From contig OZ037766.1 of assembly GCA_964035545.1 (NCBI GenBank), positions 24,264,767-24,328,766 on the forward strand: 64,000 bases of DNA. Reading direction: 5' to 3'. The notes below the pieces were generated by a model. That model did not search any database. It saw only the letters and a program-made list of their open reading frames with translations, and was not told the origin of the DNA. This DNA is from Bugula neritina (taxonomy: Eukaryota; Bryozoa; Gymnolaemata; Cheilostomatida; Bugulidae). The position numbers were made by a program, and so were the translations under genes. Numbering within the stretch: the first letter of the stretch is position 1; every line of letters starts with the position of its first letter. Below are positions 10,344-57,023 of this stretch, piece by piece.

Positions 10344-13300
10344 CTATAAGTGATTGGATGTCATTAGTTTGTTGATATCACACCACCGTTGCTTTGCTTT
10401 CGAAATGCATAAAGTCAGTTGCTCAGAATTTAGAGAAGCTCCACCATGCTTACTAACACTACAGATACTATCCCCTCCGCTGGTAATCACTGTGATTTGA
10501 CCTTGACATACAGTCTCTTCTTCGTGAGTAGGGTCAACAAGTAGAACAGCATCGTCAAACAGCTGAAGTAGAACACATAAGTAATGCCTATAAAGTATTT
10601 CTACAGACACATGACATTACTGTATAACAATGCGAGGGAAAATAAGTTTGTTATACGTAAGATATTGAAGCTACTAAACTTAAGGGCATATCAATACATG
10701 GGTTTTAAAGTGGAGTGAAAATAATGTAACATTTTACATTCAAACTTTTCTAAAAAATTGGTCACACAAGCCATAATCCATCAGGACTCAACAGTGGCAA
10801 ACCAACTTACAGCAATTTCAAATATAAGCTTGTTAACACAACAAGACTTTTTCTTCATTCAATAATTTGATAAAAAATCAACATATTTATATTCCCATTC
10901 AACATGACCGTAAACTGTAAACCTGAGACAGTAAACTTAGATCAAAAATTATTAAATTATTTTCAGAATTTAATAACTAAAGCAGTAATTTCTAAAATTA
11001 CCTCAAAATTAAAAAAATCTCTCTTTGAAAAAAATATTTGTTTGAGAACTTATAAACCAGCTTTCTTACATATGCAATGATGAAACAAGTTTAGCAAAAG
11101 AATGAAGATTGCAATATAATTGTTAGGAAATATAGAATTAATTTAATGTTATGTATACAATACACTGTACATGTATACAATATAACATACTTTACATGTA
11201 TACAATATAACATACTGTAAATGTATACAATATAACATACTGTACATGTATACAATATAACATACTGTACATGTATACAATATAACATACTTTACATGTA
11301 TACAATATAACACACTGTAAATGTATACAATATAACATACTGTACATGTATACAATATAACACACTGTAAATGTATACAATATAACATACTTTACATATA
11401 TACAATATAACATACTGTACATGTATACAATATAACATACTTTACATGTATACAATATAACATACTTTACATGTATACAATATAACATACCGTGCATGTA
11501 TACAATATAACATACTGTACATGTATACAATATAACATACTTTACATGTATACAATATAACATACTGTACATGTATATAATATAACATACTTTACATGTA
11601 TACAACATCACATACCGTACATGTATACAATATAACATACTTTACATGTATACAATATAACATACTTTACATGTATACAATATAACATACTTTAAATGTA
11701 TACAATATAACATACTTTACATGTATACAATATAACACACTGTAAATGTATACAATAGAACATGTATAAATATAATATACTGTATCTAGACACATATGTA
11801 ACATACTATATTGTGTGTTAACATATTTATAACTTACTGTGAAACTGAGAGAAACAGGCATACAGCTCAGAGTAAGTTGACGCTTATGATCTTTATCTAT
11901 AGTGAGAGTTTCTTGTTCGGCATCGTACTGGGCCATAGGCAAAGATACGTCTCTAAGAGCTGATACAGCTGCTAACAGCACTGCATCCCGTATATTACCT
12001 GCAACATTCAATATAATATAGTACCTGCCACATTCAATATAATATGTTACCTACAGCATTCAGTATATATACCTACAGCATTGAGTGCATATTACCTAGA
12101 GCGTTCAATAGATATACCTACAGCATTGAATTGTTACATACTTACAACAGTCCATGTATAATGTGTAGCCTAGTGCCCAAACACACAAGGTAAACTGTAA
12201 TGAATGTTAATAGCACAGAAAGAATCATTGCAAATGCTTTCAAGAAAATGCTATTATGTCCTTATTCCAAGAAGGCTAAGTAAAAATATCAATTTTTATT
12301 TAAAATGCCGTGCTGAATTTTAACCTAATTTTTTTAATATTCCTAAACATGTATATGTTCCACAAAGTAGTTTACTTAATCTAAACGTAAGTGCACTCTT
12401 AGTTTATTTATACTGAGTAGTTAAAAAACATTTATATTAACCAAATTTATAGGTGTATATATAGCTTCATTATTTTCAGTCAAAAATCAATTTCACAATT
12501 TTGCGATGACTTTCTCAGTCGATTTCATAATAATATCCCTGGAGACATCGACATTTAATTAAATCACTTTGTCGATTAGATCACTTACTTAAAGGATTGC
12601 TCTATCTTGTCTAATAAATGGCCATTTAGGTCAAACACACATAATATTGTGTTTTTCTAAGCATGCATTGACAAAAAACATTTGACCAAAGGTAAAAAAA
12701 GTTAGTTGAAGTTGAGGGTGTAGATTGGTAACAGCCAAAACGCCGATTTTGAAATGAGCTGGGAAATGTGACATAACAGCGCCAGCATTTCTGCTGGTCA
12801 CGTGACTATACAAATGAATAACTATAGAAATATGACTGGGAGATGTGATCTTTCAGCTCGTAATTTGTATATTCATAGAAGTGCAAATGTGAATTATCTC
12901 AATCTATAGTTTTTTGACATTTTAAATAACATGTATGTAATAACATTAGGCCATATTTTGCTTGTAAACATTAGAAAAAAGCATTGCAAAAACATGCGTT
13001 CTTTAGGATGGATGCCTGCGATCGATCTAAACTAGGTCAGATTGTGCAATATTACGGGCACACCAAAGCTGACCTATATAGTGCACTGTAACTGCTTGAG
13101 CGTTATTGGTTGATATTGTGCTCAGCAACCTTGAATACTAGCGTTATAGTTAGCACGTGCAGCATAGTTACTGGCGTTCACACGTCATGTATTAGGCTAT
13201 TCTTTTTCATGGCTGAAAATTTTACTGCCCTCAAAATTGGAATTTTGAAAAGCTGTTTTCTAGGAACATATCCCTTTGCAAAGTCACAATTGTTTGCATA

Positions 13301-18574: not shown

Positions 18575-18880
18575 TGTGGTGGCTCGTGGAGCTACCAGCA
18601 ACACAATACGCAAGGTTGCGTATTGACCCGGAACAATGTATTAGCCAATTAGCTAGGCTGTTTTATGAGTAATAGTAGCAGCTTCGCGCTACTAGCTCAG
18701 TTGAGGATAGTGCTGTAAATTAAATAGACGTGCGTATCATTACTGTTGTACATTAGATTTTATTATGTATTCTTGTATTAAAATATAACGATATCTACTC
18801 GACTTAACTCGGTGAAGTTTCTCTAGCGATAAATAGATTCTCTTGGTGGCACATCAACCCTAAATCTGGAAAACATAACA
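18575..18880 (+). repeat. 5' LTR of the gypsy element
   Basis: 306 bp, starting tgtggtggctcg and ending aaacataaca (TG...CA). It is identical to 25716-26021 except for C at 18827 where the 3' LTR has T at 25968. It should carry the element's promoter and polyadenylation signals; an AT-rich stretch (attaaaatataacg) lies in its second half. Confidence 0.97.
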
Positions 18881-18881
18881 G

Positions 18882-18899
18882 TGGTGGCAGCAGTGGGAT
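18882..18899 (+). other. Primer binding site (tRNA-Leu type)
   Basis: tggtggcagcagtgggat begins one base after the 5' LTR. Its complement ends ...CTGCTGCCACCA, the form of a tRNA 3' end plus CCA. From memory this resembles animal tRNA-Leu 3' ends; the exact tRNA should be confirmed against this species' tRNAs. Confidence 0.75.
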
Positions 18900-18913
18900 A
18901 GTGTACATCAAAG

Positions 18914-19780
18914 ATGGAGACTGAAAATGCTAGAATGCAACCACCCCCAGTAGAAGGTGAGCGTAGAAATGCTGTTAATCCTGTGAATCGTGAGGGAGAA
19001 GAAGCTTATAGACATTGCTTGAAGGCTCCCACCTTTACTGGGTCGGAAGATGTCGAACAATTTATACAAGAATTTAGAGAGGTAATGGAGGTTGCTCAAT
19101 GGCCGCATAGAGTGGCCCTTATTCAATTGCGGAGAGCGGTGACGAAGCAAGCCAAGCCGTACGGAGTAGGAACGGACGTAGACGGAATACTGGCTGCGCT
19201 GCGGGCCCGTTTTGGCATCTCCACAATAGACGCTAGGACCAAGCTAGAGAGATTGTGCCGCAACCCGCGGACCTCGCTGCAAGAACATGCCGCGACGGTG
19301 AAGAAGCTGGCGCAGATTGCATATAGCGATCTGCCCGCACAACACCAAGAGCGTTACACCTATGACGCCTTTGTCCAGTCACTAAACGACCTGGGCCTAA
19401 ACCATCAACTACGAGCTAAAGGGATAACCAGAATAGAGGATGCCCTGAAAGCTGGAGAAGCTTACCTGTTGGCTACCCAAATGCATCGAGCACAACGGAG
19501 CCCACCAGTAGTTGGAGTCAACGCTGCCAGGGCTACGACAGGCCCCGAAGCCCTCCCGCTGGAAGCCGAAGTGGACCGTATGGTAGAGATGCTGGGACAA
19601 CTGGTAACCATTCTGGCCGGTGCTGGCCCCGGTCAGGCCCTGCGGGTGCCTCCAACACCTGTAGGGCAGGGCTGGAGTAGCGCTGATCAGGACCAGGGAC
19701 AGAAAGGACGACCCCAATACCAGGGGGCGTTAAACTGTCACGGCCCGCGGACACTCTCCCTCCCCGCGGGCCGCAACTAA
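18914..19780 (+). CDS. gag: Gag-like polyprotein (capsid)
   Basis: 288 codons from the first ATG after the primer binding site. The central part (about residues 35-190, including FIQEFREVMEVAQWP and the run from LERLCRNPRTSLQEH to AGEAYLLATQMHRAQ) resembles retrotransposon Gag capsid sequence. A classical CCHC nucleocapsid knuckle is not seen; only an NCHGP fragment occurs just before the stop at 19778-19780. The product would assemble virus-like particles in the cytoplasm. It lies in the same reading frame as pol, separated by two stop codons. Confidence 0.85.
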   Translation: METENARMQPPPVEGERRNAVNPVNREGEEAYRHCLKAPTFTGSEDVEQFIQEFREVMEVAQWPHRVALIQLRRAVTKQAKPYGVGTDVDGILAALRARFGISTIDARTKLERLCRNPRTSLQEHAATVKKLAQIAYSDLPAQHQERYTYDAFVQSLNDLGLNHQLRAKGITRIEDALKAGEAYLLATQMHRAQRSPPVVGVNAARATTGPEALPLEAEVDRMVEMLGQLVTILAGAGPGQALRVPPTPVGQGWSSADQDQGQKGRPQYQGALNCHGPRTLSLPAGRN

Positions 19781-20187
19781 AGGAGTATGGTGGAACACGC
19801 CGTCGTCTGTCCGTACGGACACGACGGAACATTCCACCCGAGTGGCAGGTACCACGCAGGACTAGTAGGCCCGCACAACGGCCCAGTACCTTCTCTCTGC
19901 CACTCGCTAACCGGTTTCACCGGTTACCTCGGGAAGAGGAGCCCGCCACTGAAATGGAGCCAGAAGGCCCAGTGGAGAGCCCCAAACCCCGCCGGCACCA
20001 ACCTCGCCGCCGGAAGCCCCGTAAACCACGGGTGAAACCCCCGCCGTCCTGTCACTCCAGGACAGCACATGCGGGGGGTGAAAGTACAACCACATGGAGA
20101 GAGCTATTTCCTACCCGGAAAGGTGGCTGGCAACGCCGTCACTTTCCTGCTCGACTCCGGTTGTACTACCAACCTTCTCAGTCGTAG
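19738..20187 (+). other. gag-pol junction with stops in the main frame
   Basis: In the gag/pol frame there are stops at 19778-19780 and 20033-20035. The -1 frame relative to gag is open from before 19740 to 20187 and encodes a Pro/Arg-rich basic stretch (for example RRHQPRRRKPRKPR) of nucleocapsid-like composition, overlapping the start of pol. How pol is expressed is therefore unclear: frameshifting, reinitiation, or small defects in this copy are all possible. Confidence 0.6.
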
Positions 20188-23100
20188 AGTCTTTGAGGCA
20201 CTGCCCCGCCGGGACAGGGATAGAGTACGACCGTATACTGGGGAACATGGCACCCTGGCAGACGGGTCATGTATCCCCTTTTATGGTATTATCGAGCTCC
20301 CTGGGCGTGTCCGAGATCAGGCTATACAGGAGACCTTTATCATAGGTCAACTGGAGGAAGATGCTATCCTCAGAATGCCCTTCTTGAAGCAACACCAGTG
20401 CCGAATAGATTTTAGTAAGTCGGTGGTGCTGATGGGCGGGCGAGAACTCGCCTGTGTGGATAAGTTTGGGCGTCCTCTGGTGGGCGGTGTTCAGGTAGTT
20501 CGAAACTGCACCGTACCCGGACGCTCCAGAGCTACTATCCACTGCCGAGTGAACAGCAACCGGATAGCCAGGCTCGGGGTCGTTGAAAGCGCGCACGAAA
20601 GGATCCAACTCGCCAGTAGTTTAAACCGACTAACTGAGCGAGGGGAGGTCTTAGTGCAGTGCGTCAACCCCTTTACCGAGCCCATTGAGCTCCCAGCTGG
20701 GTCAATGCTGGGCCGGTTCCATTCCGTCCAGGAAGAGGACGTGGGCCCGTCGCTGGGTGACGCGACGGAGGCGCCCCCTCGACACCCTATTCAGGGACGA
20801 GGGGCAGTCCCAACACATCTCCGAGAGTTATACGAAACAGCCAGTGGCGGCTGCGCGAGTAACAGAGAACGCCAAGCTATGGCTAAGTTACTACGCGACT
20901 ACGGTGATGTGTTCAGCAGCGGAGAGCATGACGTGGGACTGACTGGAATTGTCAGACACGAAATACCGCTGACTGCAGGGACAGTCCCTGTCCGGCAGCC
21001 CACGCGCAGGCTGGGGCCGGAGAAAGAGAAGGAGGTTAGCCGACAAGTACGGGATCTTCTGGACCGGGGACTGATAGAGCCCGCCCATAGTGCGTGGAGC
21101 TCGCCAGTCGTACTGGTCCGGAAGAAAGACGGCAGTTGGCGGTTCTGTGTGGACTACCGCAAACTCAATAGCGTAACCATACAGGACGCCTACCCTCTAC
21201 CTCGTATTGACGAGTCATTGGACGCCCTAGCCGGCAGCAAGTACTTCAGTACGTTAGACTTGCTAAGCGGCTATTGGCAGGTTCCTCTGAGTCCCGACGC
21301 CCAAGAGAAAGCGGCGTTTATCACACGGGACGGTTTGTGGAAGTGGAAGGTGCTGCCCTTCGGGTTAACCTCCGCCCCAGCCACCTTCCAGAGGCTGATG
21401 GAACAAGTCCTTAGCGGACTCCATTGGAAGACACTGCTGGTCTACCTCGATGATGTCATCGTAATCTCTCCAGACTTCGAGACACATGTCAGTCGTCTGC
21501 AGGAAGTTTTCGAGAGACTCCGAGGTGCCGGTCTCAAGCTCAAACCTTCCAAGTGCGCTCTATTGCAGCCGGAGGTCAAGTACCTGGGGCACGTTGTCGG
21601 TCGAAACGGCGTGGCAACGGATCCCGAAAAGGTACGGGCGGTAGAAGACTGGGTCACCCCCCAAGACTTGACCGGACTCCGGGCTTTCTTGGGGCTGGTA
21701 GGGTATTACAGGCAATACATACCAGACTTTGCGGGCATAGCCCAGCCGTTAAATCGGCTCACCGCAAAGGGAGTGACGTGGCAGTGGACCCCAGTCGAAC
21801 AAGAAGCGTTCGACCGCCTCAAGGGTTGCCTACTAACGGCGCCCATCTTGGCCTACCCAGACCCCACTTTGGAGTACATCCTTGACACGGACGCCAGTGA
21901 CCAAAATGTTGGCGCTGTGCTGTCACAAGTGCAGGAAGGCCGAGAGGTAGTAGTAGCCTACTACAGCAAGTCTCTCTCACCCGCTGAACGAAATTACTGC
22001 ACTACCCGCAAGGAGCTGCTGGCAGTAATCAAGTCAGTGAAGCACTTCAGACCATACCTATACGGCAGGAAGTTCCGGCTGCGTACGGATCATGCCTCGC
22101 TGATCTGGTTGTGCAAGAGAGCAGAGCCCTCTAGTCAGGTCGCCCGGTGGCTCGAAATCCTAGCTGAATTCTCATACCGGATCGAACATCGACCGGGCAA
22201 GAGACACAGCAACGCGGATGGGCTGAGTCGCCGACCTGACGGAGGTTGCAAACAGTGTCTCAACATCGAGAGGAGGGATGGAGGTCCCCCGCGATGCGAG
22301 TTGGAGACGCTGGCTCACCACGGAGCACCGTTTGACTGGGACCAGGGTCAACTCAGGCAGGGAGTTGATGAGTCCCCGGAGGATGTGAAAAACCTCCGCG
22401 CCAATTCTGTACTGGCCGGTAATGTTCGCGAGCTGAAGAAGCTCCAAGAAGAACTGCCTGGAGTCGTGGCAGACATATATCGGGCCAAAAAGGAAGGGCG
22501 ACGACCCAGCGAGGAACGCATACGACAGGGATGCGCCGAGTTCCGGCTATACTGTCAGCGTTGGGACTCGCTGCGGATCGGGCAGGATGGGTTACTAACC
22601 ATCTCCCTAGCTGCCAGCGGCAGACACCCGGAAAGGAAGAGGGTAGTCTGCCCCACGGCCATCCGCCGTGAGTTGATTTGGGATACTCACAAACAGGCCC
22701 ACGCAGGGGTCAAGCGAGTGATATCCAAATTACGACTCCGGTGGTATTGGCCGCAGATGGAGCGTGACGTCCGGCTCAGAGTCAAACAGTGTGAGATCTG
22801 CCAGGCCAGTAAGCATAGCCGCCGCCCTGGCGAAGCAGGACGGCGGAGGCTATATGCTGGTAGGCCCTGGCAAGTAGTCGCTGTAGACCTGGTCGGACCC
22901 ATGCCCCTGACCCCCAGAGGCAATAATTGGATCCTAGTACTAACCGACCACTTTACTAGGTGGGCGGATGCTCTGGCTATCCCAGATGCATCAGCCCCAA
23001 CAGTGGCCAGGGCACTAGACCAACATGTATTCTGTTATTTTGGGCTTCCCGAACAGATACACTCTGATCAAGGCGCTCAATTCCAGTCTCAACTGATGAG

Positions 23101-24073
23101 CGACCTTTGCCACCTCTGGGGAGTAAATCAGAGCAGGACCACCCCCTACCACCCTCAAGGTAACGGGGTGGTGGAGCGCAACAACCGGATGCTAGGTGAT
23201 GCACTCCGGAGTCTCCTCCTTGGACGAGGTCAAGAGGAATGGGATACCGTGTTGCCGCAAGTCATGCGTGCATACCGTAGCACCCCACACACCAGTACTG
23301 GTGAGACCCCAAACCTCTTGATGCTCGGGAGAGAGACTCGTGTCCCTGACCATCTCACCTATCACGTTCCAGAGCAAGACAACTCGGTTCACGAGTATGC
23401 CAGTGAACTAGTGGAACGGATGAAGGCCGCACACGATATACTGCGTCAACAGCAGTGGAAGGTGCGGCACGAAGATTCCGATGAACCACCTCTCTATCAA
23501 ACGGGAGATAAGGTGTGGATGGTCAATTACCGTAGGCGTCGCGGACAGGCTGATAAACTGAAGCCTAAGTTCGTAGGCCCCTACGTGGTCGTCGAGGCTA
23601 TGCCCAATCATACGTACAAGATCGAGCGCTCAGGACAGGTGTCTATCCAGAATGAGTCTCGCTTGAAACCGTATTGGGCTAGCCCCGACGGAGTGGGAGA
23701 AGCCCCCCCGTTGTTGGAGCCCAGGAGGCAGACAACGACGCGCGGGCGACGGCGGCATGGACCTGAATACGAAGTGGTCATACCGCGGGAGGAAAACTTG
23801 GTGAGAGAGGAGCGGCAGCTTTTGTCAACAGAAGCGTGTCCGCCACCGCCGAGTCTAACTCCATCACTTCCAGAAACCGAGCCGGTTCCGGAAGTGCAAA
23901 CCCCCACAGAGGGAGGGGCTCCATCCGGAGAACAAGAAGAGGTGACCACTAACGGTGAAGTAGAGACGCCATTAGAGGCCCCTACTAACGAACCGGCAAG
24001 CGTGTCACCCCCCCCTAGAAAGGGGACAGCGTACGAGGAAACCCCCACCATATTTAAAAGACTTCGTATGTGA
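20069..24073 (+). CDS. pol: Pol polyprotein: protease, RT, RNase H, integrase
   Basis: 1334 codons from the first in-frame ATG; the frame is open from 20036. Retropepsin active site LLDSG is at residues 27-31. Reverse transcriptase spans about 300-480, with the catalytic YLDD at 459-462. RNase H starts near 603 (LDTDASDQNVGAV). Integrase has an HHCC zinc-binding region (H near 874, CEIC near 908) and D, D and E of the DDE triad near 940, 1000 and 1036, spaced as a D35E core. A GPYVVVEA motif near 1170 is the GPY/F module. A Pro/Glu-rich tail of about 130 residues follows, with no chromodomain seen. All catalytic residues checked are intact, so the enzyme may be functional. The PR-RT-RH-IN order is diagnostic of Ty3/gypsy. 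Confidence 0.96.
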   Translation: MRGVKVQPHGESYFLPGKVAGNAVTFLLDSGCTTNLLSRRVFEALPRRDRDRVRPYTGEHGTLADGSCIPFYGIIELPGRVRDQAIQETFIIGQLEEDAILRMPFLKQHQCRIDFSKSVVLMGGRELACVDKFGRPLVGGVQVVRNCTVPGRSRATIHCRVNSNRIARLGVVESAHERIQLASSLNRLTERGEVLVQCVNPFTEPIELPAGSMLGRFHSVQEEDVGPSLGDATEAPPRHPIQGRGAVPTHLRELYETASGGCASNRERQAMAKLLRDYGDVFSSGEHDVGLTGIVRHEIPLTAGTVPVRQPTRRLGPEKEKEVSRQVRDLLDRGLIEPAHSAWSSPVVLVRKKDGSWRFCVDYRKLNSVTIQDAYPLPRIDESLDALAGSKYFSTLDLLSGYWQVPLSPDAQEKAAFITRDGLWKWKVLPFGLTSAPATFQRLMEQVLSGLHWKTLLVYLDDVIVISPDFETHVSRLQEVFERLRGAGLKLKPSKCALLQPEVKYLGHVVGRNGVATDPEKVRAVEDWVTPQDLTGLRAFLGLVGYYRQYIPDFAGIAQPLNRLTAKGVTWQWTPVEQEAFDRLKGCLLTAPILAYPDPTLEYILDTDASDQNVGAVLSQVQEGREVVVAYYSKSLSPAERNYCTTRKELLAVIKSVKHFRPYLYGRKFRLRTDHASLIWLCKRAEPSSQVARWLEILAEFSYRIEHRPGKRHSNADGLSRRPDGGCKQCLNIERRDGGPPRCELETLAHHGAPFDWDQGQLRQGVDESPEDVKNLRANSVLAGNVRELKKLQEELPGVVADIYRAKKEGRRPSEERIRQGCAEFRLYCQRWDSLRIGQDGLLTISLAASGRHPERKRVVCPTAIRRELIWDTHKQAHAGVKRVISKLRLRWYWPQMERDVRLRVKQCEICQASKHSRRPGEAGRRRLYAGRPWQVVAVDLVGPMPLTPRGNNWILVLTDHFTRWADALAIPDASAPTVARALDQHVFCYFGLPEQIHSDQGAQFQSQLMSDLCHLWGVNQSRTTPYHPQGNGVVERNNRMLGDALRSLLLGRGQEEWDTVLPQVMRAYRSTPHTSTGETPNLLMLGRETRVPDHLTYHVPEQDNSVHEYASELVERMKAAHDILRQQQWKVRHEDSDEPPLYQTGDKVWMVNYRRRRGQADKLKPKFVGPYVVVEAMPNHTYKIERSGQVSIQNESRLKPYWASPDGVGEAPPLLEPRRQTTTRGRRRHGPEYEVVIPREENLVREERQLLSTEACPPPPSLTPSLPETEPVPEVQTPTEGGAPSGEQEEVTTNGEVETPLEAPTNEPASVSPPPRKGTAYEETPTIFKRLRM

Positions 24074-24370
24074 CTGCATTAGAAGCGGCGCACATGAAAG
24101 TCTAGGGGAAAACCGTACGATAAAATGTTGGAGTTGTGAACCCCACGCAAATATCAACTTTTGCGAGGGCGGAATAGTGGGAGGAATTAATGCGCGTAAA
24201 GCAAATAGTTCCGACCTCGTGCCTCAGAAACGATGCTCAGCCTTTTCTTATGCTGACATCGCCAAAGGCAGACGTATCTCACAACCAGCTCCAACCTTAC
24301 CAAGAACGTTGAGTATGGACATTAATACCGAGTTCCCAGGTAAGCCAGTATAAGTCTTGTATTCCTATTC

Positions 24371-25444
24371 ATGGAAACGGGCTCGATGCCAGTAAATTCT
24401 GAACTAATTCAGCAGATTGAATCAGAATTACTGGGAACCACGTTTCATGTGAATGACGATGAAGACACTGTAATGGCCGACGGTCTGTTAGACCTGGAGC
24501 TAGACACTGTTCTTGGTCAGTCCACACATGATTCATCAGTTCCTCGAGTGCATTCCAAAAGCTGTGACTCTCAGGTTAGCAACGGTCGACAGTCACTAGA
24601 ATTATGTTGTAAAGATCCACCGCGATCTAACAATAATTCTACTTTTGTAGACACACTCGCGCCCGTCTCTCCGGGCATGCCTTCCCTAGAGATGGCGTGG
24701 GACCCAGAGCCGGCCCCAACAACTTCTACAACCAGGCAGCTGCCACCCCAGTTGGAAGCAACCTCCAACTGGATTACCCCTGCCACAGAGAGAGAGATTA
24801 GGACCCATCAAGGAGGTGAGAGTAACCGTGAATGCAACCTCTGCCAGCAGCGATTCACAACCCACCGCAGACTAAAAGTACACTTGCCGCAGCACTACAT
24901 CACCACTTTCTGCCCTTGCGGAGAATATAGCTACAATCGTGATTACCTATTGCGGCACCAACGTACTATGCAGTGTTATCAAGGGCATGTCTATGAAGTA
25001 GACGAATCATCCTATCCTGCCTTTCTCAACGCCATCAAACCACTCATCACTGACTCAGCTCGGCTATCTCGCCTGGAGCAAGGCTTCCCTTCCCCGCGAC
25101 CCATCATCTCTGGAGCCGCAGATAAACCTACACAGTCTACTAACTCTCCACCTCACAGTCCTCTACGCATGCCGCATACCTTTCCTCGTGTCGTACTACA
25201 GAGGGTAGACACAAATGCGTATACACTCCCTCCCCCCCTTCCATCCTCAGAGCGGAAAAGACACAGACAGCCGACTTCCTCTCGCTCGTCCCCCTGGGCC
25301 CGCAACCTACGTGAAGTAGAAGCTAGGGCACACGACTTAGAGCAAGAAGTGTACAGACTGGCCCCACGAGTGCAGGCTGCATCCAGTGAACTCAAATATT
25401 TACAGGAGTCTGTTAAACGCACGAAGCGTGCGGCCCGCAGTTAA
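24371..25444 (+). CDS. Third ORF of the gypsy element: C2H2 zinc-finger protein
   Basis: 357 codons, in the place where env lies in errantivirus-type elements. There is no signal peptide or membrane helix, so it is not an envelope protein. Residues 155-175 form a canonical C2H2 finger (C-x2-C-x12-H-x3-H, starting CNLCQQRF). A second finger-like unit follows directly with C-x-C-x12-H-x5-C spacing (CPCGEYSYNRDYLLRHQ). The C-terminus (about 315-357) is rich in Glu, Arg, Leu and Ala with heptad-like spacing (VEARAHDLEQEVYRL), suggesting a coiled coil. The middle is Ser/Pro-rich. A role in DNA or RNA binding is inferred only. A donor-like caggtaag lies at about 24338, so expression from a spliced RNA is conceivable. 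Confidence 0.8.
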   Translation: METGSMPVNSELIQQIESELLGTTFHVNDDEDTVMADGLLDLELDTVLGQSTHDSSVPRVHSKSCDSQVSNGRQSLELCCKDPPRSNNNSTFVDTLAPVSPGMPSLEMAWDPEPAPTTSTTRQLPPQLEATSNWITPATEREIRTHQGGESNRECNLCQQRFTTHRRLKVHLPQHYITTFCPCGEYSYNRDYLLRHQRTMQCYQGHVYEVDESSYPAFLNAIKPLITDSARLSRLEQGFPSPRPIISGAADKPTQSTNSPPHSPLRMPHTFPRVVLQRVDTNAYTLPPPLPSSERKRHRQPTSSRSSPWARNLREVEARAHDLEQEVYRLAPRVQAASSELKYLQESVKRTKRAARS

Positions 25445-25703
25445 CTTGAGTCTACCTACAATTCCATACTACTCTTCCCCTACCTCTCTGTGGCATTCCC
25501 TACCGTAATGGTGGCACGTACTCTACATGTAGATAGGACCTTCTCTTACTTATTACTTATTGTGCACGTTATATATACCTGTATATTTTATCAGTTGTTG
25601 TTTTTTTGTATATACTTTTATACTGTTCTCTTACCCCCCCCCCACAACGAAGTGTACGTTTTTTTATGTGAATCTTATTTTTATCAGAAAGTGGGCTTTC
25701 TGC

Positions 25704-25715
25704 TGGAGGGGGCAG
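25704..25715 (+). other. Polypurine tract
   Basis: tggagggggcag directly abuts the 3' LTR. It is purine-rich with a single late C, as expected for the plus-strand primer of reverse transcription. Confidence 0.75.
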
Positions 25716-26021
25716 TGTGGTGGCTCGTGGAGCTACCAGCAACACAATACGCAAGGTTGCGTATTGACCCGGAACAATGTATTAGCCAATTAGCTAGGCT
25801 GTTTTATGAGTAATAGTAGCAGCTTCGCGCTACTAGCTCAGTTGAGGATAGTGCTGTAAATTAAATAGACGTGCGTATCATTACTGTTGTACATTAGATT
25901 TTATTATGTATTCTTGTATTAAAATATAACGATATCTACTCGACTTAACTCGGTGAAGTTTCTCTAGTGATAAATAGATTCTCTTGGTGGCACATCAACC
26001 CTAAATCTGGAAAACATAACA
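25716..26021 (+). repeat. 3' LTR of the gypsy element
   Basis: 306 bp, one substitution (T at 25968) from the 5' LTR. It ends 335 bp before the ATG of the phosphatase gene on the same strand. Confidence 0.97.
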
Positions 26022-34200: not shown

Positions 34201-37200
34201 TAAGTTTCTACAGCGAGAAAATTTTACTCATATTACTATAAATATTTTTAAGTTTTATAGAGAAAGAAAATTTAAAATAATGAATTACATACCGTTTTTA
34301 TCATGCTCACTCGATATAGGAAAATTTTATCTTCAGAGGAAGAATCAGGCAGCAGTAATGCAATTGTTAATGCATAAGATGATTCTAGTGATGCTGTAGT
34401 TGTAGCAGGCGCTTGGGTAGTTGTAGCAGGGGCTTGAGTAGTTTTAGGTGGTGCTTGAGTAGTTGTAGAAAGTGCTTGAGTACTTTTAGCAGGTGTTTGA
34501 GTAGTGGAAGCGGGCGCTTGAGTGGTTTCAGCTGGAGCTTGAGTTGTTTTAGCAGGTCTTTGGGTAGTTGTAGCAGGTGCTTTAGTAGATATAGGAGGTG
34601 CTTGAGTACTTGTAGCTGGTGCTTGAGTAGTGGAAACAGACGCTTGAGTGGTTTTGCCTAATGCTTGAGTAAAGTTAGCAGGTGCTTGAGTAGTGCTAGC
34701 GAGTGCTTGAGTGTTGGAAGTGAGCGCTTGAGTAGTTTTAGCTGGTGCTTGAGTAGTTGTAGAAAGTGCTTGAGTACTTTTAGCAGGTGATTGAGTAGTG
34801 GAAACAGGCGCTTGAGTAGTTTTGCCTAGTGCTTGAGTAGAGTTAGCAGGTGCTTGAGTACTTATAGCAGGTGCTTGTGTAGTTGTAGTAGGTCCTGCAG
34901 TACTTGTAACAGGTGCTTGAGTAGTGGAAGCGGGTGCTTGAGTGGTTTCAGTTGGTGCTTGAGTTGTTTTAGCAGGTGCTCGGGTAGTTGTAGCAGGTGC
35001 TTTAGTAGATGTGGGAGGTGCGTGAGTACTTGTAGCAGGTGCTTGATTAGTTTTAGCTGGTGCTTGAGTAGATGTAGCAGGTGCTTGAGTACTTGTAGCT
35101 GGTGCTTGAGTAGTGGAAACAGGCGCTTGAGTGGTTTTGCCTAGTGCTTGAGTAGAGTTAGCAGATGCTTGAGTAGTGTTGGCTAGTGCTTGAGTGGTGG
35201 AAGTGAGCACTTGAGTAGTTGTAGAAGGTGCTTGAGTACTTGTAGCAGGTGCTTGTGTAGTTGTAGTAGGTCCTGCAGTACTTGTAACAGGTGCTTGAGT
35301 AGTGGAAACAGGCGCTTGAGTGGTTTTGCCTAGTGCTTGAGTAGAGTTAGCAGGTGCTTGAGTAGTGTTAGCTAGTGCTTGAGTGGTGGAAGTGAGCGCT
35401 GGAGTGGTTTTAGCAAGTGCTTTAGTAGATATAGGAGGTGCTTGAGTACTTGTAGCAGGTGCTTGTGTAGTTGTAGTAGGTCCTGCAGCACTTGTAGCAG
35501 GTGCTTGAGTAGTGGAAGCGAGTGCTTGAGTGGTTTCAGCTGGTGCTTGGGTTGTTTTAGCAGGTGCTTGGGTAGTTGTAGCAGGTGCTTTAGTAGATGT
35601 AGGAGGTTCTTGAGTACTTGTAGCAGGTGCTTGGGTAGTTGTAGCAGGTGCTTTAGTAGATGTAGGAGGTTCTTGAGTACTTGTAGCAGGTGCTTGATTA
35701 GTTTTAGCTGGTGCTTGAGTAGTGGAAACAGGCGCTTGAGTGGTTTTGCCTAGTGCTTGAGTAGAGTCAGCAGGTGCTTGAGTAGTGTTGGCTAGTGCTT
35801 GTGTGGTGGAAGTGAGCGCTTGAGTAGTTTTAGCTGGTGCTTGAGTAGTTGTAGAAGGTGCTTGAGTACTTGTAGCAGGTGCTTGTGTAGTTGTAGTAGG
35901 TTCTGCAGTACTTGTAACAGGTGCTTGAGTAGTGGAAACAGGCGCTTGAGTGGTTTTGCCTAGTGCTTGAGTAGAGTCAGCAGGTGCTTGAGTAGTGTTG
36001 GCTAGTGCTTGTGTGGTGGAAGTGAGCGCTTGAGTAGTTTTAGCTGGTGCTTGAGTAGATATAGGTGGTGATTGAGTACTTGTAGTAGGTGCTTGTGTAG
36101 TTGTAGTAGGTCCTGCAGTACTTGTAACAGGTGCTTGAGTAGTGGAAGCAAGCGCTTGAGTGGTTTCAGCTGGTGCTTGAGTAGTTTTAGCAGGTGCTTG
36201 GGTAGTTGTAGCAGGTGCTCTAGTAGATGTAGGAGGTGCTTGAGTACTTTTAGCAGGTGCTTGAGTACTTGCAGAAGATGCTTGAGTAGTGTTAGCTAGT
36301 GCTTGAGTGGTTTTAGGTGGTGCTTGAGTAGTTGTGGCAGGCGCTTGAGTAGTTTTAGGTGATGCGTTGGTAGTTTTAGCAATTGGTTGTGTTTCTGTCT
36401 GTCCACCATTGGTAGTACCTGCTATAGGCATCTGTATTTTTTCAGTGTCAGATTGAACTTGTATTCCTTTCAAAGCATCTTTTATAATGTCAAATGATTG
36501 ATTTTGTAATTTATTACTTAATTTATTGACAACGTCTGTTATAAAATCTTGACCAATAAGTTGATTTACGTTCATAGCCCGTTTAAATCTTGTTAGTTCC
36601 TTTTCTCTCCAGATAACCACGCAAGTATAGTTATCTGTTGTTCTTGCATTACACTCAACTGAAGTATACTGCTGTTTTCCTGAAAACTGTTTTCTGTACT
36701 GGTTTTCTAGCTGAAAAATAAAAGCAAGATTGTATTTAGTCAACACTTCTAATATAAACATCTTAAAGTTATCATAATTATTGTAGGCCTAAAGGTTTTC
36801 ATCATAATTTTGTTGCTGGCCTAATTTTGAAACACATGGTTTTTTGCATAACAATAGGCATTTAAACTTATATACTTTTACTAATATTGCCTTATTATAA
36901 TAAATCAATACTGCGTCAAAAAGCTACCAATTCTATTATCGTTTATTACTCAGCTCACTATGGTAAACCATCAGGCAAGTTAATCAAAATAAGCCATCGG
37001 TTAGCCTACTGTAAAAAGTTATTAAATATTTTCACTGAAAATACCCTAATTTTGTAACAAGAAAATAATCCTTCATTGCTTTCCCCGTTGATCTCAGTTT
37101 GATAGTATTTTTAAAATTTAGTAAAGTAAATTTTGTTACATATCTATAGCGATTTTCTGGTGACAATTAAAAGATGTTTTTATCCTAGCAAGTTTTTATG

Positions 37201-40200
37201 TAGGCTTGTGCAATAAAAAAGTTATGTGAAGTGACTAGTAGTCTGGGAAGTTCAAAATAGTTTTAACTGATTGTAGCTTTATTGCAGCTAATTTTTAAAA
37301 AAACTAATTTGAAAAGAGTTAATAGAGGTAATGAGATATGAGAGCTAAATAAGTAATAAAGTTAAGAAAAAAATGAAATATTCAACAAATGAACAATTTC
37401 CAATAATTACCTCGCTTGAAGAGGTAATGCAGCTAAAGGTTTATTGAAGCTGAAATGGTTGCCAAGCGGGAATTCATGAGTGCAAAGCGCATCATCATAA
37501 AAATAAAGTTTTGAGTTGTTTATTTTGGGCAAAAAGCTAAATTATCATGCAGTAGCTATAACCAGCACTTACTGACAGCTGCTTCACTTAACAGAAACCA
37601 GCAATAAATCAAAAACGAATGCCATCACATTGGTTGGAACGCATACTATTCATTGGTGCCTAATATATGAATATTCACTGAACCTATAATCATGACGAAG
37701 TTAGCTTTTGAGAATCGTGAAAAACTTACTGCTTCTTTTATGCTTTGTCTGTACAACATTAGGGTTTCATCATCAGTTGTGTTTATCAGCCTTGGAATAA
37801 CTAAATTGAAGGTTGTTTTGTTAAAAATTTCAAAAGCAGGTTGTTTTTCAGTTGACATTGAGGAAATTGAAGTCAGGTTTTTAGCCATTGTTGTAGATAC
37901 TTCAGTAGCTCTGGAAGTTGCCTGAGTAGTTTTGGCAGGTGCCAGGGTAGTCGTAGCAGGTGATTGAGTCATGTCTAGTGTTTGAGTACTTGTAGCAGGT
38001 GATTTAGTAATTGTGGCAGATGTTTTTGTAACGATGGTAGGTGCTGTGGTAGATGTTGTAGGTGCCTGGGTAAATGTGGCAGGTGTTTTAGTAGTTTTGG
38101 CAGGTCCTGAGGTAGTTGTTGTAGAGTGTTGGGTCATGTCTGGTGTTTCAGTACTTGTTGCAAGTGCTTTAGTAGTTGTGGCAGGTGCTTCAGTAATTGT
38201 GGCAAGTGCGTGAGTAGTTTTGGTAGGAGTCTTAGCAGTTTTAGCTGGTGCTTTAATAGTTGTGACAGGTGCTTGGGTTGGCGTGGCAGATGCTTTCGTA
38301 GTTAAGGCAGATGCTTTCGTAGTTGTGGCAGATGCTTTCGTAGTTGTGGCAGGTGTTTTAGTAGTTGTGGCAGGTGCCTGGGTAGCTGTGGCAGGTGCTT
38401 TAGTAGTTGGGGCAGATACTTCAGTAATTGTGACAGGCGCTTGGGTAGTTGTGGCAAGTGCTTCCGTAGTAGTGGCAGGTGCTTGAGTAATGTTGGCAGG
38501 TGCCTGAGTAGTTTTAGCTGATGCTTTAGTAGTTGTAGCAGATGCTTTCGTAGTTGTGGCAGGTGCTTGAGTAGTTTTAGTTGGTGCTTTAGTAATTGTG
38601 ACAGGCGCTTGAGTAGTTGTGGCAAGTGCTTCCATAGTAGTGGCAGGTGCTTGAGTAGTTTTAGCTGATGCTTTAGTAATTGTGACAGACGCTTGAGTAG
38701 TTGTAGCGGATGCCTGGGTAGCTGTGGCAGGTGTTTTAGTAGTTGTGGCAGGTGTTTTAGTAGTTGGGGCAGATACTTCAGTAATTGTGACAGGCGCTTG
38801 GGTAGTTGTGGCAAGTGCTTCCATAGTAGTGGCAGGTGCTTGAGTAGTTTTAGCTGATGCTTTAGTAATTGTGACAGGCGCTTGAGTAGTTGTAGCGGAT
38901 GCCTGGGTAGCTGTGGCAGGTGTTTTAGTAGTTGTGGCAGGTGCTTTAGTAGTTGGGGCAGATACTTCAGTAATTGTGACAGGCGCTTGGGTATTTGTGG
39001 CAAGTGCTTCCGTAGTAGTGGCAGGTGCTTGAGTAGTTTTAGCTGATGCTTTAGTAGTTGTGGCAGGTGCTTGAGTAGTGTTGGCAGGTGCCTGAGTAGT
39101 TTTAGTTGGTGCTTTAGTAATTGTGACAGGCGCTTGGGTAGTTTTAGTTGATGCTTTAATAATTGTGACAGGCGCTTGAGTAGTTGTGGCAGGTGCTTTA
39201 GTAGTTGGGGCAGATACTTCAGTAATTGTGACAGGCGCTTGGGTAGTTGTGGCAAGTGCTTCCGTAGTAGTGGCAGGTGCTTGGGTAATGTTGGCAGGTG
39301 CCAGAGTAGTTTTAGCTGATTGGGTTGTTGGGGCGGGTGTTTGAGCACTTGTGGCAGATGCTCTAGCAGTTGTAGTAGGTGCCTGAGTAGTTGTAGCAGG
39401 TGCTTGTGTAGTTGTAGCAGGTGCTTTAGTAGTCATAGCTGGTGTTGTCTTTGGTCCTTTGTTAAAAATAAAATTGTTTGTTATAATTGTCTATCGCATA
39501 GTTTGGATTGGTTTTGGTTTAATTATAATCAATTTGTATGATATATATGTCTTTTTTATAATGCAAATAATAAAAATGCTACTCATGTTTAAAATAACAT
39601 TTTTTCTAAATTATTTCCACAACCTACCTACACATGTGATTCCGTCTCCTTTGTATCCATATTTGCAGAAACAGCGCAACTTGTTCAAAGCCATGATAAA
39701 TTCACATTTTGCATTTGGAGAGCATACTTCATTACCACATATCATACCATCTGCTTCTATAGAGACATAAACAAGTATATTGCCAGTCTGGTAATTCAAT
39801 CAAATCTAAGGTTGGTATAATATTTCTCTTTTACATAAAGTTGCATTAAGATTCAAACAATGATTTCTTAAAGCCATTCATTGTAATCATGCTTTTTAAT
39901 TCATACGGAAGTAACAGTAAAAACTATTTTTGTTCTCGCATTTTTATTCAATAGCTTATTATGGAGTTTATTAACTCAATGCTTAATTTTTGAAAGCTTG
40001 GCTGGGTTTACCCCAATTTAATAGTTAACATTCAACAATGGTTTTGCTGCTTTAGCTAGATATATTTTTTAGAACTAAGGACTCAGTCACCTTGTGACCA
40101 GTCTCTTACTAACACATAAGGCATTAAAATTTTTAGCATACATGTGATTATAATTTTTAAAGATCAATATTGTAGTTAACAATTTTTATCTAAAACATTT

Positions 40201-44960: not shown

Positions 44961-47900
44961 ATGACTTATAAGGCTGACGTAGAATAAGATTTTTTTGCAC
45001 TACATTAAATCCACTAAATCTATTTCATGTTTAAAACTCAATTTCCCAGGTGTTAGTTGAAAAGAAAATTAACTCGATGAACTATAGCTATCTTTTCAAC
45101 TATATAAGTCATTCTATAAGCTTTGCTTTTCTATACAGCTCGGCCTAACTGGTGAATCATGATTCCATCATATGCTAAAGCATTAACGTATATTTGAACT
45201 ACATTTAGTAAAATTATCTTTTTTATAATAAAAAATATATCAAGAAATAATATAACTCCTAACGATACCAAACTTTGCCACGTTTTGAAAACTTCCATAC
45301 AAAAAATGAACAGCACTCAGAAATTAAATTAGACGGTTGAGCAATTTCATTTAGGCTATAGTATTATGGCAACTGAAGTAATACTTCCAAGGTATTTCTC
45401 AGAACTTCTAGTGCATACTATTAAACCTCGATGTAGTTTGAACTATTTTTAAATTTACTAACAGTTTGTGAGATGTATTATGTAAAACCCAAAAAGGCTT
45501 TTCAGTATTTGAAAAACAGTAATTAATAGGGTTTTTTTATCAATTAAACTGCATACTTGATCAAATATTATTTGAAGTATGAAATGGTAAGATTCAAGTA
45601 ATTATTAGCCAGTATAAAGGTTGTAGCTTGTTTCATTGCTAAATAACTATATTAATTTTAACAGCATATTCTTATAATTAGACTTCATCATATAGCAGAA
45701 ATATTTATTTAATGATTTTTAATCAAATATATACATTTTTGTGATTCTACTTCTGTATGGCATTGAATTGAGCTTTATAATAAAACTTAGTTCTCAAGTA
45801 CAAAGCATGCGTATGATAACTTTTGAGCAAAGATCTTTCACTGCAGTACCAATCTGATTGAAGATAAAATATAGTTTTAGCTGGAAAAAAATCTTTTTGT
45901 TGTAGAGATAAAATAAAATATGTTTTAAAAACAGCTAGAAAATATATAATATCCATATTATGATATGCAGTAAAAAACTAATAACTAAAGTCAGTTTTAG
46001 TAGTACTACGTACAAACATACATGTATATATACATGTATATAATTATAGTATTGTAATAATTATTCTTGTGTGTTTAGTTTGATGTTACTTTTATTTAAT
46101 ATTTCATATTACATCATTATATTTTTTCTTTTTAATACCACCGACTAAAATACATACAAATTGAAAACTTAAAATTGACATGCACTTTTTCCTTTGGGAT
46201 AAGCAGTAAGTTTAAAATTTTCCACAGAATGGCATAGCTCCCAGAGTTGAGACCTTATACACTTATACATATATATAAAACCACATGCATTGCATTTCAC
46301 TTATGTATAGTTTATAACTACAGTTTATATAGTTCACAATGACGAATACATGTTTTTATACCATCCCATTAGGCTAAAGTTATTAAATCCACTTGGAACA
46401 AATTAAGTTTAACAATTTATCATGTTTTACTATTTCTAATTTTTATTTAACTTTCTCGTGGCAATTTTAAGGACAAATTGAAATTAATACTCAAAATTTT
46501 GCAGTGCACACAAAAACAGCAAACCTATCTTTCTGCCCATTCTATCCTAAACTGTATGGTGGCAAGTTTTAATGGTCTGCAATATAAAGCATGTAAAATA
46601 ATTTTGCCCCCACTGGGATTCGAACCCAAGACCTCTGGCTTGCAAGCAATTGTGCTATCCATTACACCACGAGGACCACTAGGTAAACTCATTACTACAA
46701 AGCTATTGATTAAATACAGTTTAGATTTTAGAACATAAGCAAAAGGGCTGAATGACTTTATTGCAGCTCCAAACTAAAAATCTTTGATTTTTGTGTCTCA
46801 AAGTAAGATTAAATAATCTAAACTCAATTTTATGGTTATGCTGTTTTATTATGCATGCCTTTTGCAAAATGCAAAAAATATACTTTTTTACTGTAACCTC
46901 CTTTAAATTTCTGCAAAGTCTTTAAATGCTGCAATCTAAATAATAATTTTTGGCAAAAAATTTCATTTGATGAAAGAATTCAGCTGCATTTTTTGGAAAA
47001 TAGTCAAGTTTTCAATGTAAAGAAAAGCTTGTTTAACTTGGCTAATATAGGCTTATATTTTTTTTTTCTGAAGCATCTTCTATCTGATATAATGATTTTA
47101 CATTCGTGGTAATGTCAAATAGGCATTATATTGCTATATATGATTTCGTATCTGCTTATTATGAGTAGGCACAGCCACAACTTATCAGTGTGTAGTATGA
47201 TAATATGAGTAACCCAGTTTGTCTGCTTTAATGCTTAAAAGTAAAAGTCATTAAATTTATAAATAGGTATACTATATAGCATTCGCTTCTCATATAAAAC
47301 TATTCTAAAAATGTAATACATTTTATACGTGAACCATTTTGACACACCCTTAAAATATATCATCAAAAATATTTTTTTGACAGTAGTTAAATATTTTTGT
47401 ATTTCAATAAGCGATAAAAAAGAATTCCAAAATGTAGAACTTCACTGGTCTCCAAGGCTATAAGGTTCAAGATCATGAGGGCATTAAGCACCATTGCGTA
47501 TTGGAGATGTGTTGTGTTTTTCAGTGTCATGAGATTGCAAAGTAATAAATAATTTTGACAGATTTATGTAATGAGAGATCCTAAAATGCATGATTATAAA
47601 AACAATGATTATTTCAACTCATGAATGGGAAGTAGCAAAGACTTTTGTTGAAAATAGCAGTACAGCTTAGTGGCCTTAAAATTATTTCTACAAATGTTGG
47701 CAGAACTAAGTGATTAATTGGAAGAGCAAGTGGCTGCTGCCTACAGACTAGTTGAAAAACTGGGACTATGTGCTGCCTAAAGCTATAGTGAGAAGTGATG
47801 GTAAGTCTGCAACAAGAATACAATTAATTATAAATCTTAGTAGAAGTAAGTAAAGTTTTAGCTGCATTTAGTATGCGTGCGTGTGCATGTGCATATACAT
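44961..47900. other. Intergenic, no gene seen apart from a tRNA-like relic
   Basis: AT-rich sequence with scattered short ORFs lacking any recognisable content. The only structured feature is the tRNA-like sequence at 46605-46676. Confidence 0.6.
46605..46676 (-). tRNA. tRNA-like sequence, probably a pseudogene or SINE head
   Basis: 72 nt on the minus strand with a good box A (tggtgtaatgg) and box B (ggttcgaatcc). The D-arm (GTGT/GCAC) and T-arm (TTGGG TTCGAAT CCCAG) pair. The acceptor stem pairs with several G-T wobbles, but the anticodon stem pairs poorly around a putative GCA anticodon. A working tRNA is unlikely; a tRNA-derived relic is the better reading. Confidence 0.5.
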
Positions 47901-47901
47901 A

Positions 47902-47902
47902 C

Positions 47903-47965
<63 letters not shown>
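47902..47965. repeat. (TA)n microsatellite
   Basis: About 60 bp of nearly pure TA repeats directly abutting the ribozyme-bearing repeat. Confidence 0.95.
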
Positions 47966-47968
<3 letters not shown>

Positions 47969-48023
47969 AATCTGTGGACAGCAGTTGTTTCGGGATTTGT
48001 CCCCTCATCAGCACAGAACAGAG
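47966..48023 (-). ncRNA. Type I hammerhead ribozyme, copy A (intact core)
   Basis: Minus strand, 5' to 3': stem I strand CTGTG (48016-48012), core CTGATGA (48011-48005), stem II GGGG-ACAAA-TCCC (48004-47992), core GAA (47991-47989), stem III ACA with five-base loop ACTGC and TGT (47988-47978), cleavage base C (47977, triplet GTC), then CACAG (47976-47972) closing stem I. Stem I extends by one A-T pair, an internal loop, and CTC/GAG. All invariant core positions are present. The short 3-bp stem III is typical of metazoan retrozyme ribozymes, which work best as dimers. Predicted cleavage lies between 47977 and 47976. Confidence 0.82.
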
Positions 48024-48237
48024 TACCATGGCCCACACCTTCGCAATAGTAGAAACTTATAGTTTTACTAAAGCATATTTTTAAAGGGTGTAAACCCAGG
48101 CCAGAGTGCTCAAGTGACTCTAGGGGTCACCTAGGAGTCACGAGCATTGCTAAATGCTAGCAGCTTGAGTTTGTGACCATGGTGAGAGTGTTCAATCATG
48201 TAATGTCATTGCTGAGCAGTAAATGAGAGCATAATAT

Positions 48238-48295
48238 CTCAATCTGTGGACAGCAGCTGTGTCGGGATTTGCCCCTTCATCAGCACAGAACAGAG
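48238..48295 (-). ncRNA. Hammerhead ribozyme, copy B (mutated core)
   Basis: Same stem I (CTGTG 48288-48284 with CACAG 48248-48244) and core CTGATGA (48283-48277). The GAAA box reads GACA (48263-48260), which replaces the essential A14 with C. Stem III is slightly longer (ACAG-CTG-CTGT) and keeps the GTC triplet. It is probably catalytically dead or very slow. Confidence 0.7.
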
Positions 48296-48681
48296 TACCA
48301 TGCCCCACACCTTCGCAATAGTAGAAACTTATAGTTTTACTAAAGCATATTCAAAAGGTGTGTGTTATATGTGTTATGTTATACGTCATATATATAGCCT
48401 TGTTAGTGAGTTGCCTTCTCCCTAACACGAGCCTCTAGTAATTTATGTCTGATGAATTCTCATTTGCAATCAAGCAGATGCTACCACATGTGTTGTTTTA
48501 GGATAGTTAGATGCAGCACAAGGTTTTATGTCACTGAGTACAGTATTCGTTTACTCATCGTTATCCCTCCCTGAGCTTGCCACCACCGCTCTAACTATTG
48601 CACTCAGAGACACTAAACTCTAAAGCATCGAGCTATATCCGTTTTCCTCGCAGATCTTTTGCCACAGAGCCACAGAAATCA

Positions 48682-56735: not shown

Positions 56736-56800
<65 letters not shown>

Positions 56801-56970
56801 CTGGAAAGCTCTTTGCGTTTGTTGAGGGAGGATAATTCGGTTTGTTTTTAAATTACATATTTCTCATAGCTGCATAAGTTACATAAGTTACATAAATTAT
56901 ATCAGTACCAAATATAAATACTCTATTTTTCGAAATATTGAGTTCTTTTGATTCATTTTTTAATTATAAA

Positions 56971-57023
<53 letters not shown>

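Follow-up and report, generated by a model that had tools for sequence, protein, structure and literature searches.

A dispersed hammerhead retrozyme family of Bugula neritina with a TA-microsatellite target shared by Penelope-like elements

Features of the locus

The window, by which we mean the whole 64-kb stretch of Bugula neritina DNA that was analyzed, contains a (TA)n microsatellite followed by two copies of a 272-bp unit, the first complete and the second cut short (Table 1). Repeat comparison within the window places the direct copies at 47962–48091 and 48234–48363, with a spacing of 272 bp and an identity of 92%, which confirms the pair of direct copies 272 bp apart described in an earlier sequence-only reading of this DNA. 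No open reading frame (ORF) of at least 150 aa in the window overlaps the element, no direct repeat around the locus bounds it except the unit itself, and none of the 25 longest of the 46 inverted repeats listed near the locus does so.

Table 1. Positions in the window of the retrozyme, its target, and the fragment of a Penelope-like element (PLE).
Feature	Position	Strand	Remarks
(TA)n microsatellite, insertion target	47893..47965	n/a	element edge 47965/47966, ATAT ambiguous
Retrozyme unit copy A, 272 bp	47964..48235	RNA sense on minus	
Type I hammerhead ribozyme (HHR) of copy A, complete	47966..48023	minus	predicted cleavage between 47977 and 47976
11 nt 3' of cleavage site plus ATAT	47962..47976	minus	putative (TA)n-primer pairing site and start of reverse transcription
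Copy B (truncated), to about unit position 128	48236..48363	minus	HHR core broken, GAA to GAC
PLE family 2 fragment	56795..56974	plus	3' end 56894–56974, 95% to L016

The same reading had assigned a complete type I hammerhead to the minus strand of copy A, and both the core and the stems were read from the sequence in agreement with this assignment. The core comprises CTGATGA (48011–48005) and GAA (47991–47989), and stem I pairs TCTGTG (48017–48012) with CACAGA (47976–47971) over 6 bp, beyond which an internal loop is followed by a distal helix CTC/GAG (48023–48021 and 47968–47966). Stem II, with the loop ACAAA, joins GGGG (48004–48001) to TCCC (47995–47992) in four pairs including one G-T, while stem III (ACA/TGT, 3 bp) carries the loop ACTGC; C17 of the GTC triplet lies at 47977, where the cleavage had been predicted. 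A structural descriptor that demands both core and pairing found the HHR of copy A as its sole match on both strands of the window and matched none of 400 dinucleotide shuffles. The HHR of copy B has GAC in place of GAA and a stem II that is out of register.

A scan of the window with a hammerhead covariance model had been proposed as a check, and Rfam Hammerhead_1 (RF00163) gave no match at gathering score in the window and none up to E = 10 in 47900–48400. Since this model misses the HHR of copy A, it is unusable as a negative for the retrozyme family. Folding of a 69-nt piece of copy A gives an MFE structure other than that of the HHR, with an unremarkable energy (z 0.46), and the centroid structure of the same piece contains stem I together with a stem II that is one base out of the HHR register.

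Other features of the window include an LTR element at 18575–26015, which we take to be of the Ty3/gypsy type, with 300-bp direct repeats that are 100% identical and a 1334-aa ORF carrying reverse-transcriptase (RT), RNase H, and integrase domains. This ORF is flanked by ORFs of 288 and 357 aa, in which no Pfam family was found at E 0.001, and the RT match of the element is one of many near-equal matches in the genome. Long minus-strand ORFs with strong GC skew (5363–8182, 34272–36761, and 37646–39436) extend over degenerate tandem repeats of 21 bp, a 25-bp tandem repeat occurs in 24 copies at 11164–11763, and a single tRNA-Cys (gca) gene is located on the minus strand at 46605–46676, 1.2 kb to the left of the TA tract.

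The retrozyme family in the genome

A search of the 216-Mb assembly (295 contigs) for further copies demonstrated that the repeat is not unique. A 14-mer spanning the cleavage site, with at most one mismatch allowed, gave 686 matches in the genome against 20 for the reversed control, and a 392-bp query gave at least 81 aligned matches from the 40 scored of 634 candidates. Counted by unit starts, the family amounts to about 670 copies genome-wide, in which a unit of 271–272 bp is dispersed as monomers to multimers, and the internal junction from unit to unit occurs at 117 places and at none in the reversed control. The lengths of 79 distinct insertions in the fetched loci range from 33 to 1082 bp.

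In the same loci, 70 of the 101 HHRs examined are fully intact. Folded as a circle, the unit has a predicted MFE of −80.3 with 67% of its bases paired (z −4.1 against 200 shuffles), and its GC content is about 44% according to base counts over unit positions 31–270. The number of unit starts, the intact ribozymes, and the circular fold all support the earlier interpretation of the repeat as a retrozyme. Mean conservation over 53 units is 0.979 for the HHR and 0.973 for the rest of the unit; as the HHR is hardly better conserved than the remainder, this comparison provides no evidence of selection on it. Over the genome, RF00163 returned a single weak match (E 0.06), which is the hammerhead of a PLE and not of the retrozyme, RF00008 matched neither this genome nor any of 14 control genomes, and nothing was found in one scan of viral contigs with a 26-base stretch of the HHR.

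Insertion into TA microsatellites

Insertions were sampled from places with an exact match to the 14-mer, taken by coordinate on contig 1 together with the first four on contig 2, and drawn from the 100 listed of the 686 14-mer places; the position order was chosen so that likeness to the window copy would not steer the sampling. The 50 loci obtained in this way (L032–L061 and L063–L082) gave a final sample of 49 distinct insertions at 46 loci, including neighboring insertions within the same loci, and left out were the contig 1 array L005/L006, L068 (without an alignable unit), and three loci repeating arrays already counted.

The left edge of these insertions is fixed. Insertions start at unit position 1 in 30 of the 49 and at position 3 in 16, positions 5, 10, and 88 being represented once each, and 47 starts fall within unit positions 1–5. 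A TA run of at least 12 within the 40 bp before the insertion start was detected at 42 of the 49 left edges. The same test picks out 0.56% of positions drawn at random from the window and, in flanking sequence away from insertions, 2 of 4590 positions. A run of at least 12 is also present at the variable right end in 29 insertions, and 28 have one at each end. The edges take two main forms, (TA)n/ATCTCAATCTG and (TA)nTAC/CTCAATCTG, where the slash marks the edge. Genome-wide, TATATA joined to the unit start was found at 427 places and at none in the reversed control, and the TA runs at the start edge together with these junctions therefore identify the microsatellite as the target of the retrozyme family. 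The TA repeat abutting the window copies had previously been taken only as a fit to an inserted element; insertion holds, but the repeat is moreover the target of the family and a marker of its polarity. The cut-off of the second copy, also taken as a sign of insertion, agrees with the family as a whole, since copy B ends at the usual variable far end. That the locus belongs to a dispersed family of non-LTR retrozymes, and that this family targets TA, is regarded as nearly certain.

The seven left edges without a TA run of 12 comprise three with a shorter TA run, one with an AC repeat, and three with neither, and two of the three short TA runs sit beside GT repeats. The edges at the AC repeat and at the short TA runs next to GT repeats are those of L057, L058, and L059 and hint at the occasional use of other dinucleotide targets. 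At L011 (838–1965), two oppositely oriented retrozyme insertions start from the two ends of a single TA tract, as though priming had occurred on each strand of this palindromic target.

Polarity and template

On the plus strand the fixed edge is the left one, and with respect to the HHR strand it is the 3' one. Followed along the HHR strand, it comes 11 nt after the predicted cleavage site, or 15 nt after it when the ambiguous ATAT is included. A fixed edge on this side is what target-primed reverse transcription of an RNA of the HHR strand predicts, and the variable far end of copy B in the window is consistent with 5' truncation of a minus-strand RNA. Tandem arrays with TA at their borders could also arise from an ordinary satellite DNA or from a TA-targeting DNA transposon (a Tc1/mariner-like MITE) in which the hammerhead is incidental. 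Such an origin is extremely improbable, however, when the inserts vary at one edge but not at the other, when 44 of the 49 sampled inserts do not exceed 276 bp, and when the fixed edge coincides with the 3' side of a strand that carries a complete HHR; among the 25 longest inverted repeats listed, moreover, none bounds the element.

The inserts continue across the cleavage site, and their template was therefore either a ligated circle or uncut RNA, whereas a cleaved linear monomer could have yielded only the few bases past that site. Because the cleavage site lies inside both the 14-mer and the junction pattern, inserts stopping there would be invisible to both, and the argument for a circular or uncleaved template holds for the inserts found and not for all possible inserts. 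Insertions that end no more than 2 bp from the unit boundary number 11 of the 49 sampled and 23 of the 79 over all fetched insertions, an excess that is simply explained by one full lap back to the primer, with a contribution from TA microhomology. The other TA-containing stretch of the unit (positions 109–120) received 3 of the 49 sampled ends and 4 of the 79 overall, and the other variable ends favor AT and TA (18 of 56 against 7.7 expected).

These ends bear on whether the template was instead an uncleaved multimeric RNA, with HHR cleavage and the circle as by-products. RNA of this kind likewise crosses the cleavage site, and HHR mutants of an anole PLE are described as inserting as well as the wild type in vitro (PMC11167929). 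A linear template nevertheless predicts ends at the start point after whole laps only via TA microhomology, and the other TA-containing stretch collects fewer ends than the boundary; the intactness of the HHR in 70 of 101 copies argues against it as well. An uncleaved template is accordingly considered rather unlikely, and the ligated circle is preferred. Unit similarity within one array (98.1%) is close to that between loci of the same similarity cluster (97.7%), and the two copies in the window have no rare variants in common (0 shared, 9 unshared); given this non-discriminating likeness and the lack of shared variants, one circle per array is not claimed.

Penelope-like elements at the same target

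A PLE reverse-transcriptase query gave 71 matches in the genome at E up to 10, including 62 at E ≤ 0.001 (best 5.1e-44), and three of the matches lie in open frames of 715–777 aa. A truncated member of PLE family 1 (PLE-1) was found at L020, where it shares a TA-rich stretch with a retrozyme; its endonuclease-like C-terminus is followed by a hammerhead, about 47 nt, and (TA)n. The hammerhead, as read from the sequence, has a stem I, a stem II, and a 2-bp stem III. The PLE-1 layout at L001 is alike and that at L037 similar, and the descriptor detected the PLE-1 HHR at all three loci; the HHR at L001 is the single weak genome match to RF00163 and scores 25.4 bits, which is below the cut-off of 34.

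The junction between the PLE-1 3' end and (TA)n occurs at 89 places, with none in the control. Sequence immediately internal to this end is about twice as frequent, at 176 places. Among the 100 listed of these 176 places, 14 pairs counted by eye stand head to head at distances of 66–206 bp, and inverted copies of this kind are known from PLEs (PMC3846280). Head-to-head copies may account for part of the difference between 176 and 89. The copies of PLE families 2 and 3 that were read also end in TA. Pieces of PLEs are present in 6 of the 46 sampled retrozyme loci and once in the window, where the PLE family 2 fragment has an inverted upstream segment (56884–56795, 93%) and is flanked by TA runs at 56739–56794 and 56974–57020. 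The landing of PLEs in the same kind of TA runs may indicate how the retrozyme repeats spread.

Pfam did not name the endonuclease pieces of the PLEs, and among their homologues one is a GIY-YIG domain protein of Holothuria leucospilota, while others carry PF26215. The GIY-YIG Pfam model found one place in the genome, an 84-aa ORF that we presume to be SLX1-like and at whose locus no PLE piece was found; as the model found only this non-PLE ORF, it misses the resident PLEs.

Retrozyme and PLE both carry an HHR beside (TA)n and occur together, which would also be expected if the unit were a pseudo-LTR fragment of a PLE and not a separate non-autonomous retrozyme. No DNA similarity was seen between the retrozyme and the 3' part of PLE-1, however, and the unit closes on itself at its 117 unit-unit junctions, making a pseudo-LTR origin very unlikely. 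The unit was also rejected as a PLE, with no ORF of at least 150 aa over the element and no similarity to the PLE-1 piece.

A separate non-autonomous retrozyme could have been mobilized by a LINE-type RT or by another TA-preferring element, and many open RT frames besides those of the PLEs are present in the genome (150 scored of 2124 candidates), some of which, judged by their sequence, are presumably LINE-like. In the one LINE-like family with a readable 3' flank (L083–L090), a TA run of at least 12 adjoins the 3' end in 0 of 7 placed copies, with 1 further copy not placed, and the 3' end shows a short repeat of the TTTG type. This family was rejected as a partner on account of its 3' ends, and since three PLE families end in TA in the copies read, mobilization by an element other than a PLE is regarded as unlikely.

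Proposed mechanism

On the sequence evidence, the most coherent chain of events is that a non-LTR retrozyme circle is copied into TA microsatellites by PLE machinery, and we consider this chain as a whole to be fairly probable. The minus strand of the unit would be transcribed, the type I HHR is predicted to cut the transcript after GTC, and ligation of the cut ends would give a circular RNA of about 272 nt. Pairing would then take place, through ATAT or ATA, between a nicked (TA)n microsatellite and the site 11–15 nt 3' of the cleavage site, and, as the fixed edge suggests, the microsatellite would prime reverse transcription of the circle. Synthesis would cross the ligated junction and halt either at no fixed position or on completing at least one whole lap. 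Joining of the far end would follow, often within the same TA tract and with TA-like ends favored. The enzyme would most likely be supplied by the resident PLEs, whose 3' ends lie in the same type of tract.

Comparison with known systems

Metazoan non-LTR retrozymes were defined by Cervera and de la Pena (2020; PMC7229834), who consider LINEs or PLEs as candidate helpers and a primed circular RNA as a requirement, the priming being by a DNA target or a small RNA, with the primer not shown in the account available to us. According to the consulted part of a review (PMC7761336), the helper is not betrayed by any motif conserved among retrozymes. The route by which retrozymes re-enter DNA is a question that the present family addresses. 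The genome likely preserves a record of the primer, a TA microsatellite, of where on the RNA copying starts and with which polarity, and of a probable helper with the same target, and the question of re-entry therefore becomes directly testable.

The family has in common with the retrozymes of that description a type I HHR, a unit within 170–400 nt, a GC content below 50%, dispersed dimers to multimers, a highly paired circular fold, and the presence of HHR-bearing PLEs in the same genome (PMC7229834). It differs from them in its insertion into (TA)n and in a single fixed start 11–15 nt past the cleavage site, whereas only TSDs of more than 4 bp, when present, are described for the former, with the enzyme left open between LINE and PLE; circles have been shown for those retrozymes (PMC7229834), and the circle of the family reported here is a predicted one.

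Poseidon of Anolis begins reverse transcription at an internal site of its RNA, past the HHR cut in the downstream direction, prefers AT-rich DNA, and inserts in vitro without the need of hammerhead cleavage (PMC11167929). The internal start past the HHR cut on AT-rich DNA resembles that proposed for the retrozyme, but the anole start site is described as not homologous to the cut DNA, whereas the retrozyme start site matches TA (PMC11167929). Tandem, 5'-truncated, and inverted partial copies are a likeness to Penelope of Adineta (PMC3846280). Unlike the retrozyme unit, PLEs encode an RT and a GIY-YIG endonuclease (PMC11167929, PMC3846280). Terminons likewise have a target-complementary repeat at the RNA 3' end adjoining an HHR motif, but they are described as giant coding elements located at telomeric repeats (PMC12477314, citing Arkhipova, 2017).

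A broader proposal, on which our judgment is evenly balanced, is that PLE protein might copy the retrozyme circle straight onto TA microsatellites, with the HHR setting a target-complementary AUAU priming site next to the point where the circle is ligated. The ribozyme would then help to define both the template and the priming site, and a hammerhead beside a priming repeat might be a design common to retrozymes, PLEs, and Terminons. The carnation small viroid-like RNA carries an HHR. This retroviroid has DNA copies, which in some cultivars are found in microsatellite-like genome sequences; it differs in being from a plant and linked to a pararetrovirus, and the portion of the source consulted does not describe it as a dispersed family whose members share a fixed edge (PMC9695139). 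The literature searched, in which few subscription papers were covered, contained no report of animal retrozymes targeting microsatellites. The family belongs to an already known kind, the metazoan non-LTR retrozymes with a type I HHR, and what is new here is its insertion pattern, with a strong microsatellite target and a start point fixed next to the ribozyme, in a genome whose PLEs share that target.
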